Shown one piece after another: positions 43,490 to 47,690 of a DNA stretch of 64,000 nucleotides. Source of the DNA: Denitrovibrio sp. (GTDB taxonomy: Bacteria; Chrysiogenota; Deferribacteres; Deferribacterales; Geovibrionaceae); the NCBI GenBank assembly GCA_002869145.1, contig PKTM01000011.1, forward strand, positions 200,236-264,235, given 5' to 3'. The translations under genes were made by a program, and so were the position numbers. Under the pieces are notes generated by a model that was not told the origin of the DNA, searched no databases, and saw only the letters and a program-made list of their open reading frames with translations. Every line of letters begins with the position of its first letter. Position 1 is the first letter of the stretch.

Positions 43490-45160
43490 ATGTTCGGTAT
43501 AAAAAAATTTACAGTTACAGTGTCTGGGAGCGGTCGTGCCTTAGAGGTTAAAGGCGGCACAAACCTTTATGCGCTGCTTAGGGAAAACAACCTTATAGAT
43601 AAAAAACTTTGCGATGGAAACGGCCAGTGCGGCAAATGCAAAGTAAAAGTCTCCGGCACTCCCGTTAATAAGCCTACAAAAAAAGAACGTCTGGTTCTTG
43701 CTGAGGCGAGTCTGGACAGCGGCATTAGGCTGGCCTGTCAGTACCCTGTGAAATCGAACATTACCGTAGACACTCATGAAGCAGCAAAAAGAGAGAACGT
43801 CAACCCTGGCATCATCAGCATGAAGGTGAAAAAAGAGGGCGGCGAAATTGAGGAAAACGAATTTAAGAGCTTTCTGACCACAGAAATGTTTATCAACGAA
43901 GCAGAGAAAAAAGATGATAAAAAGCAGGCAGAGCCTGAGGTTATCGAAGATTTCTCTGATGAGGTTATTATAGATGATTCTGTTTATGACGAGCGTCCTA
44001 TAGAAGAGATTGTCGGTAATGAGAATACTGTAGAGATAACTAAATACAAAGAGCAGTCAAAAGAGGAATCGTCTTTCAGCAATGACGTACTGCTTCTCAT
44101 ACAGCAGCCGGGAGCCATAAGGTTTTACCATTACAGCGCAGGTATTGGTAATGTTGCAGACGATGGAACTATAAAAACAAATGAAAGGCTGGAAACAATT
44201 TTAGAAGAACAGCTTATTGCTGATTTTATTCATAACAACATAAAAATACAGGATATCGAGCGGGTTATAGTCATTCTGGACAAGCCTTATTTTGAAGGCG
44301 CTGAAATGTTCGGACTTGCAAAATACTCCTCTTTAGAACTTGGACCTTTCCTTGTTGAGGTTCTTCAGCCGAAAGAAAATCACCGCGATCTTGTTCGTTT
44401 TATGAGGTTTGTAAACCAAACACCAGGGAAAAAGCTGCTTATTCCTTTGGATAATATGGAGAAAGCGCACTTTATGGATGAGGGAAATCTTCATGACATG
44501 ACAGCTAAGTCCATAGACTGCGATTCTTTTTTCGGTATGAGTGAGTTTCAGGGCAACAACCCTATTGTGAACATAAGCCCTGACCTTATAGAGACAAAAA
44601 TAAAAGACGATTATCATTTGCCGGATTCAATATCTTTCCCTGTGTTTTTCCGTACAGCGGCACTGCTTATGAAAAACGGCCTCACAGACCGCAGACTTCA
44701 GCTTCTTAGCCGCTCTGAGGTTGTTGACGATTTTCCTCTGGAACTGACTGTGAAACTTAGCAAAAAAGATGATGTTGCAAGGTTTAACATTTACCGCAAG
44801 CAGGGCTGCGACCTTTATATAGACCAGAATGCTCTGGACAGCTTGAACAGTCTGAGGGTTTTTATCAGGTCTATAATAGGATACACAGAAGAACGTTTTG
44901 GCCGCATTGATGATATTGTTTTTTATACACTGACAGACAGCGAGTCACTTGCTTCTGACCTGATAGCTCTGAACGCTATCCCTAAAAAGTATGAAAAGAA
45001 AGTTAAAACATTTTTTGGTGACCCAACGCTTTATGCAGTGCAGTTTTTTCAGGAAAAAAATATAGGTACGTATTTCGAGAAAAGGTTTGGTGAGCAGGAC
45101 TTTATAGAGCTAGACGAGGACGAGCTTTTTCTTGAACATCAGAAAAAGTCTGCAATATAG
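43490..45160 (+). CDS. 2Fe-2S ferredoxin fused to a degenerate RACo/DUF4445-like domain
   Basis: 556 residues. Residues 1-100 are a plant-type 2Fe-2S domain with CDGNGQCGKCKVKV and RLACQYPV. A linker rich in acids follows (about 100-195). The C-terminal part (about 200-556) matches the order of the ASKHA ATPase part of corrinoid reductive activators. The end LYIDQNALDSLNSLRVFIRS, then IDDIVFYTL, then LNAIPKKYEKKVKTFFGDPT parallels ITQxDIRxxQLAKAAI, the AGGFG strand and the IGLLP/GN end of RACo. The Gly-rich ATP loops are lost. Likely an electron-transfer protein with a non-catalytic ASKHA fold; inferred. Confidence 0.65.
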   Translation: MFGIKKFTVTVSGSGRALEVKGGTNLYALLRENNLIDKKLCDGNGQCGKCKVKVSGTPVNKPTKKERLVLAEASLDSGIRLACQYPVKSNITVDTHEAAKRENVNPGIISMKVKKEGGEIEENEFKSFLTTEMFINEAEKKDDKKQAEPEVIEDFSDEVIIDDSVYDERPIEEIVGNENTVEITKYKEQSKEESSFSNDVLLLIQQPGAIRFYHYSAGIGNVADDGTIKTNERLETILEEQLIADFIHNNIKIQDIERVIVILDKPYFEGAEMFGLAKYSSLELGPFLVEVLQPKENHRDLVRFMRFVNQTPGKKLLIPLDNMEKAHFMDEGNLHDMTAKSIDCDSFFGMSEFQGNNPIVNISPDLIETKIKDDYHLPDSISFPVFFRTAALLMKNGLTDRRLQLLSRSEVVDDFPLELTVKLSKKDDVARFNIYRKQGCDLYIDQNALDSLNSLRVFIRSIIGYTEERFGRIDDIVFYTLTDSESLASDLIALNAIPKKYEKKVKTFFGDPTLYAVQFFQEKNIGTYFEKRFGEQDFIELDEDELFLEHQKKSAI

Positions 45161-45164
45161 CAAG

Positions 45165-45388
45165 TATTTAATGTTCTCTAATGTTTCTACTCAGAGCTTG
45201 CTGGAAAACATTTGGTGTTCTCAAATGTTTCTACTCAGAGCTTGCTGGAAAACATTTAATGTTCCTAAATGTTTCTACTCAGAGCTTGCTGGAAAACATT
45301 TGGTGTTTTCAAATGTTTCTGAAACTAACTTGTTGGAAAACATTTAATGTTCTCAAATGTTTCTACTCAGAGCTTGCTGGAAAACATT
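45165..45388. repeat. Five-copy 44-bp tandem repeat with hairpin arms
   Basis: Copies begin at 45179, 45223, 45267, 45311 and 45355, exactly 44 bp apart, with a partial unit before (45165-45178). Each holds the arms AAATGTTT and AAACATTT around TACTCAGAGCTTGCTG, so each can form a hairpin. The joint between arms alternates TTAATG, TTGGTG, TTAATG, TTGGTG, TTAATG, so the real period is 88 bp. Copy four has a changed centre but intact arms. The last copy supplies the final codons and stop of the receiver gene on the minus strand. May act as a two-way terminator between convergent genes. Confidence 0.9.
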
Positions 45389-45737
45389 GATAAAGAGCAC
45401 TTTCCAGATCAGCAGCACGAACGGGTTTATTCAGATAGAGACATGTTCCTTTATCTGCAGTATCTTTAAATGATTTGTATGACCCAAAAGCAGTTATTAC
45501 TATTTTCTTGGCGGGATGATTTTTTTCAGCCAATTCTTCAACAAGCTTTACACCGTTCATCTTTGGCATATGCAGGTCTGTTATTATGAGGTCATAATCT
45601 TTTGCTTCTGCTTTCGCCAGACCTTCCTGTCCGTCTGATGCCATATCAACTTCGTGTCCGCCCATTTTAAGTATCTCTGTGTATCCGAGTCTTGTGTGTT
45701 CTTCGTCGTCTACAACAAGTATTTTCAATTCCTGCAT
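45363..45737 (-). CDS. Single-domain response regulator
   Basis: 124 residues: LVVDDEEHTRLGYTEIL, phospho-Asp in LIITDLHMPKMNGV, Thr in IVITAFGSYKS, and Lys in YLNKPVRAADL. A stand-alone receiver. The last eight residues (QCFPASSE) and the TGA lie inside the fifth copy of the 44-bp repeat. It follows the tandem-Hfq gene by four bases and is probably co-transcribed with it. The partner kinase is unknown. Confidence 0.88.
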   Translation of the reverse strand: MQELKILVVDDEEHTRLGYTEILKMGGHEVDMASDGQEGLAKAEAKDYDLIITDLHMPKMNGVKLVEELAEKNHPAKKIVITAFGSYKSFKDTADKGTCLYLNKPVRAADLESALYQCFPASSE

Positions 45738-45741
45738 AATA

Positions 45742-46257
45742 TTATCTCTCGTTATCGTACTTAATTATCTCCCCATGCTGATATATGGGAAATACTGTCG
45801 ATACTGTATTTTTATAAACAAGCTGTTGCCTTCCTTCGAAAGCTGTCAGCAGTGTATAATTATCAAATCCTATTAGGCTTCCTCTGATTTTTACTCCGTT
45901 TATAAGAAAACTTACTATCGGAGATCTTGATTTTCTGACTTCATTTAAGAAGATATCCTGCATTGGCGGTCTTGTATGTTTTGGCTGCCGTCCTTGGTGT
46001 GCGTTGTAGTAAATCTTTGATATAAAGTCTATATCCACAACAGTCTTTGCTGCTGCCACAGTTGCTATATCATTTTTATTAATCATTATTTTCATTTCTG
46101 CATCGTCTATTATGATATGATATTGGTCAAAATCATCCACTCTTCCGCGAAATCTCTCTTTATTTTTCATGATAAACATGAGCGGTATTTTCTTTGTCCG
46201 AGCGTTATGCATAAAGACAAATTCTATCTGAGCGTGAAAAGTTGAAGAACTATCCAT
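45742..46257 (-). CDS. Tandem-Hfq protein (two Hfq/Sm domains in one chain)
   Basis: 171 residues from the ATG at 46257 (SD TAGGA). The second half reads like Hfq: MQDIFLNEVRKSRSPIVSFL, then INGVKIRGSLIGFDNYTLLT, then LVYKNTVSTVFP, where Hfq has VYKHAISTVVP (His changed to Asn). The first half has the same plan: AQIEFVFMHNARTKKIPLMF, ERFRGRVDDFDQYHIIIDD, then INKNDIATVA in the Sm2 position. Hfq is an RNA chaperone that forms hexamers; two domains per chain would give a three-chain ring (inference). A longer frame from 46320 exists, but a terminator-like hairpin lies in that part, so 46257 is preferred. Confidence 0.82.
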   Translation of the reverse strand: MDSSSTFHAQIEFVFMHNARTKKIPLMFIMKNKERFRGRVDDFDQYHIIIDDAEMKIMINKNDIATVAAAKTVVDIDFISKIYYNAHQGRQPKHTRPPMQDIFLNEVRKSRSPIVSFLINGVKIRGSLIGFDNYTLLTAFEGRQQLVYKNTVSTVFPIYQHGEIIKYDNER

Positions 46258-46280
46258 AATAAATCCTACCTGTAAAAATA

Positions 46281-46306
46281 AAAAAATCTGCCTCCCCTCT
46301 GAGGCA
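46281..46306 (-). terminator. Terminator-like hairpin in the leader of the tandem-Hfq gene
   Basis: On the minus strand TGCCTC, six bases, then GAGGCA, GA and a run of seven T (stem at 46289-46294 and 46301-46306). It lies between a strong promoter and the start codon at 46257. It may be an attenuator, or the end of a short leader RNA of about 60 bases. Confidence 0.55.
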
Positions 46307-46352
46307 AACTCTAATAACATTGCTATTACAATATAATGTAAAAGCTAAATTG

Positions 46353-46380
46353 ATTATAAAGTGTTTAAAAAAGTTGACAA
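46353..46380 (-). promoter_or_regulatory. Sigma-70-type promoter for the tandem-Hfq gene
   Basis: Minus strand -35 TTGTCA (complement of 46375-46380), 16 bases, then -10 TATAAT (complement of 46353-46358). Transcription would begin near 46346 and give a leader of about 90 bases with the terminator-like hairpin and a preceding TTACA/TGTAA stem. Confidence 0.6.
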
Positions 46381-46514
46381 GTCATTATTTTGTCCACGTA
46401 ATTATAGCCTTATTTTGTAAGTTTTTTCAAATATGTTTACTATGTTGAAACATCACGCAAGATTTCCACAAGATTCTAAATGCAAAAATCATTGACAAAT
46501 TTAGTCTAAATCGC

Positions 46515-46543
46515 TTGTCAACACTTTCCAAATAGCCTATTAT
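46515..46543 (+). promoter_or_regulatory. Sigma-70-type promoter for dnaN
   Basis: -35 TTGTCA (46515-46520), exactly 17 bases, then -10 TATTAT (46538-46543). Start expected near 46550, 34 bases before the dnaN ATG at 46584, which has SD AAGAGGT. The region 46381-46560 is very A+T rich and also holds loose matches to DnaA boxes (TTTCCACA at 46463-46470), none perfect. Confidence 0.65.
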
Positions 46544-46583
46544 TACTACAACTATATTTATAATATAATACTAAGAGGTCACT

Positions 46584-47690
46584 ATGCGTTTTAAGGCTGT
46601 AAAAGATGAAATCTATCCGCTAATACAGTTTGCCAATTGCTTTACCAGTCCAAAGAACCTGAACACTGTTTTGCAAAACATTCTTATTGATGCAGAAAGT
46701 GATGGAGTTACCCTTCGTGCTACTGATATGCAGGTAGGCTTTTCAGGTAAGACCGGTGTCAGTGTTGAGCAGACTGGGACAGCTACTGTATCAGGAAAAA
46801 AACTGTTAGACATTATAAAAGAGATACCTGATGGATCAGTTATAGACTTCTCTTTTGATGGTTCAAAGATAAATATTGAATCTGGCAAATCCAGCTTTAA
46901 ACTGTCTACAATAAGCCATGAAATTTTCCCAACAATGGCTGAAATAACTCCTGAGTATCACTTGAAAATCAAATCAGGACTTTTACAAAACCTTTTGAAA
47001 AAAACAAGCTTCTGTATCTCAACTGATGCATCAAAGATTGAATACACCGGATCACACATAGCTGTTTACGGTGATAAGCTTGAAATATCTGCTGCTGATT
47101 TTCAGCGCATAGCAACCTGCAGTGTAAAATTTGACGAAGAATATTCAAATGAGTTTATGATAAATATTCCACGCAAAACTGTAATGGAGCTCTTGAAGGT
47201 TCTGGATCAGGATGAATACGTTGAGATTGAAACTGATAGAAAACAGATAGTTTTTACAATCGGCGAAATACAGATATTCAGCAAACTTATTGAGAAATAT
47301 ATAAAAAGTATCACTAAACTCTTTACCAATGATTTCCCTTTGAAAGCTAAACTGAACAGAGCAGAGTTTCTTGATGTTATAAAAAGAGTGTCTGCTATTA
47401 CAAGTGAAGTTACACACGGTGTTGTTTTATCATTTCAAGCTGCTTCATTGACAATATATTCTCTTGAAACAGAATATGGAACAGGTAATGAAACCATTGA
47501 TGACTATGAATATAACGGGCAGCCTATGGACATTATCTTCAACGCAAAACACGTAGCTGAGATGGTTTCCAATGTTGATACTGATTATTTTCATCTTCAG
47601 ATGATGGGTGAGCGTAATCCAGCTTTAATACTGCCTGAGAGCGGTGAATACAAATATTTAGTAGTACCTATTTCTATTAACAGGTACTGA
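46584..47690 (+). CDS. dnaN: DNA polymerase III beta sliding clamp
   Basis: 368 residues, the normal clamp length. Three similar domains; typical parts are CFTSPKNLNTVLQNILID, GKKLLDIIKEIPD, and the C-terminal KHVAEMVSNVD and ILPESGEYKYLVVPI. Forms the ring that holds polymerase on DNA. Unusual context: dnaA does not precede it, and the divergent neighbour is the tandem-Hfq gene. Its stop overlaps the recF ATG. Confidence 0.95.
   Translation: MRFKAVKDEIYPLIQFANCFTSPKNLNTVLQNILIDAESDGVTLRATDMQVGFSGKTGVSVEQTGTATVSGKKLLDIIKEIPDGSVIDFSFDGSKINIESGKSSFKLSTISHEIFPTMAEITPEYHLKIKSGLLQNLLKKTSFCISTDASKIEYTGSHIAVYGDKLEISAADFQRIATCSVKFDEEYSNEFMINIPRKTVMELLKVLDQDEYVEIETDRKQIVFTIGEIQIFSKLIEKYIKSITKLFTNDFPLKAKLNRAEFLDVIKRVSAITSEVTHGVVLSFQAASLTIYSLETEYGTGNETIDDYEYNGQPMDIIFNAKHVAEMVSNVDTDYFHLQMMGERNPALILPESGEYKYLVVPISINRY

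Follow-up and report, generated by a model that had tools for sequence, protein, structure and literature searches.

A tandem Hfq protein with two unlike domains and an invariant receiver partner in Deferribacterales

The window, which is the whole 64,000-nucleotide stretch of DNA analyzed here, comes from Denitrovibrio (Geovibrionaceae, Deferribacterales in the NCBI taxonomy) and encodes an unusual Hfq protein. The presence of two Hfq domains in its single chain is well supported by profile comparison: a diverged first domain (D1) is joined by a conserved linker to a near-canonical second domain (D2). Our preferred reading, which we rate at nearly an even chance, is that it represents a second, specialized Hfq of the Deferribacterales, in which three chains would form a pseudo-hexamer with two kinds of RNA site and in which RNA activity would be gated by a receiver protein. 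The features of the locus are listed in Table 1.

Table 1. Features of the tandem Hfq locus, in positions of the window
Feature	Position	Strand	Description
Tandem Hfq protein	45742..46257	-	171 aa, stop codon included; Pfam PF17209 twice above cut-off
D1, first Hfq/Sm domain, about residues 7-73	46040..46239	-	diverged; 40.3 bits, E 2.4e-10 (searched alone against Pfam Hfq)
D1-D2 linker, about 25 aa	45967..46039	-	conserved; helix predicted at residues 76-86
D2, second Hfq domain, about residues 98-158	45784..45966	-	near canonical, His57 replaced by Asn/Ser/Thr; 82 bits
C-terminal tail	45745..45783	-	conserved EIIKY-x-x-E; alignment of 21 sequences
Stand-alone CheY-like receiver	45363..45737	-	124 aa; PF00072, 86.6 bits; 4-nt gap after the tandem gene
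Intergenic region upstream of the tandem gene, before divergent dnaN	46258..46583	.	shared with dnaN in family f1 only

The tandem reading frame starts at the ATG at 46257; an in-frame ATG upstream, at 46320, is not conserved. The whole protein scores 116 bits against PF17209 (curated cut-off 27 bits), with both stretches aligned, and 92 against TIGR02383 (cut-off 61.7). When the genome was scanned with the Pfam Hfq profile, the D2 half reached 82.3 bits and the D1 half 39.8 bits. A preliminary description of this DNA had proposed two Hfq domains in one protein and had named a profile search of each half as the test on which the proposal could fall; both halves lie above the curated PF17209 cut-off, D1 searched alone being significant at 40 bits against 27, and the motifs YKN in the second half and INKND in the first are present as claimed. 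D1 is matched to single Hfq by hhalign with 96.7% probability. Identity is 21% between D1 and D2 of the window protein, and 39% between D2 and the single Hfq of the same genome. The linker follows the pattern D-[IV]-[DE]-[FY]-ISK-x-YY...H-x-[RK]-PP, with I79, S80, K81, Y83, Y84, H94, P97 and P98 invariant in the alignment; in the tail E163, I164, I165, K166, Y167 and E170 are invariant in 21 sequences. An AF2 monomer of the tandem protein, too weak for domain packing (mean pLDDT 57, pTM 0.41), has a helix and five strands in each half, with pLDDT of about 70-86 over D1 residues 21-70, and its best PDB matches are solved Hfq structures (E ~1e-4, target TM ~0.8, 23% identity).

D1 and D2 were mapped onto E. 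coli Hfq numbering in 21 sequences from six families. We take the proximal U-binding pocket of E. coli Hfq to consist of Gln8, Tyr55 and Lys56, the rim positions to be Asn13, Arg16 and Lys17, and the distal A-binding pocket positions to be Tyr25 (Phe in some D2), Gly29 and Ile30 (Val in D2). D2 keeps Gln8, Asp9, Asn13, Arg16, Lys17, Phe39, Asp40, Tyr55 and Lys56 in every sequence, and Phe/Tyr25, Gly29 and Val30 in 19 of the 21; its position 57 is always Asn, Ser or Thr and never His. In D1, Gln8 is replaced by Glu and Asp9 by Phe in 21/21; in 19/21, Tyr25 is replaced by Ile, Gly29 by Lys, Ile30 by Glu, and Lys31 and Gln33 each by Arg. The N-terminal positions of D1 hinge on the alignment of a diverged helix. 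D1 positions 55 (Tyr) and 57 (His) are variable, with no Y/H signature, and the residues retained are Phe39, Asp40, Lys56 (21/21) and Thr61 (19/21). The combination of the Sm2 motif [YF]KH with proximal Gln8, used as a membership test for Hfq, is found in neither domain: D2 has Q8, Y55 and K56 with N, S or T in place of H57, and D1 has E8 and K56. As judged from this alignment, the distal A-binding residues and the proximal Gln8-Asp9 are lost from D1. D1 is not decaying, because its signature is constant throughout the order. Two different kinds of RNA site, as the preliminary description supposed, are well supported by the profiles and by residue conservation.

A three-chain pseudo-hexamer is plausible. 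In the most economical model, three chains would close into a single Sm-type ring of six domains, with D1 and D2 alternating. The three D2 units would provide near-standard Hfq sites (proximal U-binding, rim and distal A-binding), and the three D1 units would provide altered surfaces, with a basic strand where the distal A-binding pocket would be and Glu for the proximal Gln8. Each ring face would thus carry three standard-like and three altered sites, and the ring's range of RNAs should be more restricted than that of the cell's canonical Hfq, or distinct from it. An equally good reading of the D1 divergence is that D1 is out of RNA binding, or out of the ring.

A search of 60 related genomes recovered the same two-domain protein in 24 genomes besides that of the window. 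The families bearing it (f1, f2, f3, f5, f7 and f8) are all Deferribacterales, and the named genomes include Denitrovibrio, Seleniivibrio, Calditerrivibrio and other Deferribacteraceae/Deferribacterales. A 385-genome sample showed none of these tandems in its more distant members, and no relative of the protein is encoded in a viral collection. Orthologues are 41-94% identical (20 aligned); within the genus dN is ~0.04-0.05 and dS is saturated. The tandem gene is under strong purifying selection. In a domain tree of 69 columns D1 forms one clade (100/100) and D2 is not resolved from canonical Hfq, so that internal duplication and fusion of paralogues are not distinguishable.

Other candidate relatives were examined and rejected. 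A 151-aa protein of the sister family f9, encoded beside htpG (L057:4860-5312, L058:4698-5150), is not a two-domain homologue: its C-terminal half alone is Hfq, and a divergent one (35.9 bits), and hhalign gave no Sm similarity for its N-terminal half. A Bacillota match from the genome scan (L074) is an ordinary single Hfq; a match from the phage collection (H16) lies on a scaffold that is probably bacterial, a short way past miaA, and is likewise a single Hfq; and the long Hfq proteins of family f20 have an unrelated N-terminal region and no second Hfq. As a separate observation, two adjacent genes that each combine an N-terminal helical region, winged-helix-like by eye, with a C-terminal Hfq domain were noted at L081:5357-6427, L082:4618-5621 and L083:4568-5553, in small genomes (~1.5 Mb) of one distant family in which canonical Hfq is also present.

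The constant partner of the tandem gene is the receiver. It consists of a receiver domain alone and has all the catalytic residues of a stand-alone response regulator, namely the phosphoacceptor Asp54, the acidic pair Asp10/Asp11, Thr82 and Lys104, each invariant in 16 aligned sequences. In the window and in 24/24 other genomes it lies immediately downstream of the tandem gene on the same strand, and it is the sole neighbor that is constant across all families. The gap between the two genes ranges from -29 to +6 nt, the negative values being partly a matter of start-codon choice. The ribosome-binding purines of the window's receiver (GAGAG) overlap the tandem gene's final codons, which suggests translational coupling, and the first helix of the receiver is unusually invariant (DDEEHTRxGYxE), which suggests a fixed partner. 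Receiver orthologues score E ~1e-60; none was found in any tested tandem-less genome, where paralogues score ~1e-26 or weaker. No cognate histidine kinase adjoins the gene pair. On gene order, the pairing shows a functional association, which is not proof of physical contact. The tandem Hfq is probably co-translated with this phosphorylatable receiver, and the receiver, phosphorylated or unphosphorylated, would be the likely switch, binding the tandem Hfq and altering either its activity on RNA or the way it pairs with canonical Hfq. A bolder proposal, to which we give a sizeable minority chance, is that in most Deferribacterales an RNA chaperone is the direct end point of a two-component signal, the phospho-receiver gating an asymmetric tandem-Hfq ring that has two kinds of RNA site and works beside canonical Hfq.

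The search for a separate single-domain hfq that the preliminary description had recommended was successful: the gene lies in the same genome downstream of mutL-miaA (C12:60578-60763, 101 bits), and canonical hfq is present in every tandem-bearing genome. Family f4 (5 genomes) and family f6 (16 genomes) lack Hfq altogether, tandem and single types alike being absent in genomes G014, G016, G021, G023, G028, G029 and G032-G045, and the receiver orthologue is also absent in the ten Hfq-less genomes of these two families that were tested. One draft genome of family f2 (G026) has a single Hfq and no tandem. This distribution is what would be expected if the tandem protein needs canonical Hfq, and it fits an alternative that we consider rather unlikely, in which D2 alone forms the ring and binds RNA, either as a six-chain D2 hexamer or together with canonical Hfq in mixed rings, and D1 remains outside. 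D1 would then serve the receiver, or RNase or polymerase partners, as a docking module through which canonical Hfq would be modulated, and of this role too we are doubtful to the same degree. The lack of Gln8, Asp9, Tyr25 and the distal Gly-Ile pair in D1 agrees with such an arrangement, as does its faster evolution (mean pairwise identity 63% for D1, 71% for D2 and 81% for single Hfq). However, D1 nearly always keeps Lys56/Thr61 of Sm2 and Phe39/Asp40 of Sm1, which would be needless for a mere docking module, and one or two loss events may be enough to account for the joint absence of the two Hfq types.

It is improbable, in our estimate, that the operon serves co-expression only, with the receiver acting elsewhere and the tandem Hfq being a chaperone for a particular stress or phase that is not gated at the protein level. 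It is common for a receiver to stand alone, and its target is then usually a distant one; these genomes encode many receivers, but the pair is inseparable in 25/25 genomes and jointly absent elsewhere, and no other neighbor is shared by all the families. That the protein is linked to replication, acting with dnaN, recF or gyrB, is a far more remote prospect. The preliminary description called the setting unusual on account of dnaN and the receiver. The tandem gene does adjoin dnaN, as it stated, with dnaN divergent at 46584 (+), and dnaN-recF-gyrB stand beside the tandem gene in 12/12 genomes of the window's family (f1), the window included; but dnaN lies outside the ~5-kb flanks in 13/13 genomes of five other families, and outside f1 the upstream neighbors are unrelated between families. 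A dnaN link is ruled out by this synteny, and the replication reading is largely refuted with it; what stands of the unusual setting is the receiver, real and invariant in all 25 genomes, the dnaN adjacency being incidental and confined to the window's family. The idea that the first half is a chance resemblance or an annotation artefact, to which its low identity with the second half (just 21%) might lend itself, is refuted by an E value of 2.4e-10 with a score above the curated cut-off, by the hhalign match to single Hfq, and by recurrence in 24 genomes.

Downstream of the receiver, a convergent gene for a 2Fe-2S protein follows in 20/25 genomes (43490-45160 in the window); this long protein has an N-terminal 2Fe-2S domain and is weakly AcsV-like. 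Between the two genes, a 44-nt direct repeat is present in five copies (window 45166-45388), each with a short inverted repeat, AAACATTT...AAATGTTT; elsewhere in the genome the repeat has one weak place, C18:95124-95190. One in-frame stop each was seen in recF (TGA, window 47876), gyrB (TAG, window 49326) and xseA (TAA, L059:6323), and recF and gyrB are intact in a relative (L033). Draft base errors rather than recoding are suggested, because three different stops and an essential gene are involved.

The tandem architecture is not unprecedented, since the Zymomonas mobilis hfq was reported in 2010 to encode two Sm-like domains, as in six other Sphingomonadales, in a study that raised the question of whether a ring could be completed by three proteins (PMC2877685). 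The Sphingomonadales proteins (Zymomonas ZMO0347; NCBIfam model NF010691/PRK14091) likewise have two Hfq domains in ~170-200 aa with a linker of ~20-25 aa, but both of their domains are canonical (both YKHA[IV]ST), whereas the Deferribacterales D1 is strongly diverged. The tandem of Sphingomonas parapaucimobilis (WP_281177287.1), encoded between an ntr-type regulator and hflX, passes NF010691 with 287 bits over positions 10-173 (cut-off 270 bits); the window protein fails NF010691/PRK14091 at 80 bits against 270, with D2 alone aligned. Unlike the Sphingomonadales tandem, the Deferribacterales protein is additional to canonical Hfq and has the receiver as a fixed partner. With canonical Hfq (PF17209, TIGR02383) D2 has in common its Sm1-Sm2 layout, its residues at the proximal and rim sites and the majority of those at the distal site; it differs in its fusion to an altered domain, the replacement of His57 and the conserved EIIKY-x-x-E tail. 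A 2020 comparative paper reported two Hfq-like proteins in four Deferribacteraceae species and described no tandem (PMC7074383). Burkholderia Hfq2 (175-216 aa) is likewise a long second Hfq beside a canonical one, but its length is due to a disordered Gly-rich tail and not to a second Sm domain (PMC7074383). Other searches of the open-access literature returned nothing on the Deferribacterales tandem protein. What is new is the D1/D2 asymmetry, the occurrence alongside canonical Hfq and the obligate pairing with a receiver; tandem Hfq itself was known.

Uncharacterized double Sm/Hfq-like proteins, several with an N-terminal cold-shock domain, were also noted in eight genomes of different lineages (L094-L101). 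In the three that were scanned, the first Sm half matched no Pfam family above cut-off; by hhalign this first domain is nearer to D1 (75%) than to single Hfq (14%), which makes an older origin of the tandem possible, although unproven. The proteins differ from the tandem in their ~20% identity, the frequent cold-shock domain and the absence of a receiver in the short flanks. A full-length collinear hhalign alignment of the two groups (E 8.5e-5, probability 60%) is only suggestive of a common origin. Control of RNA binding by a receiver has a parallel in ANTAR proteins such as EutV/NasR, receiver-controlled regulators in which a sensory input domain acts on RNA binding; there the input and RNA-binding domains share one chain and the fold is unrelated, whereas in the Deferribacterales the fold is that of Sm proteins and the two parts are encoded by separate genes.

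If the receiver acts on the tandem Hfq, a two-component system would control an Hfq-type chaperone by protein contact, for which a limited search of the open-access literature found no case; interest in the system would grow if receiver gating were shown. Asymmetric Hfq rings, if they do exist in nature, would help to tell which of the six equivalent Hfq sites serve sRNA loading, mRNA binding and annealing. A natural contrast is available within the Deferribacterales: some lineages have tandem as well as canonical Hfq, and others lack both.
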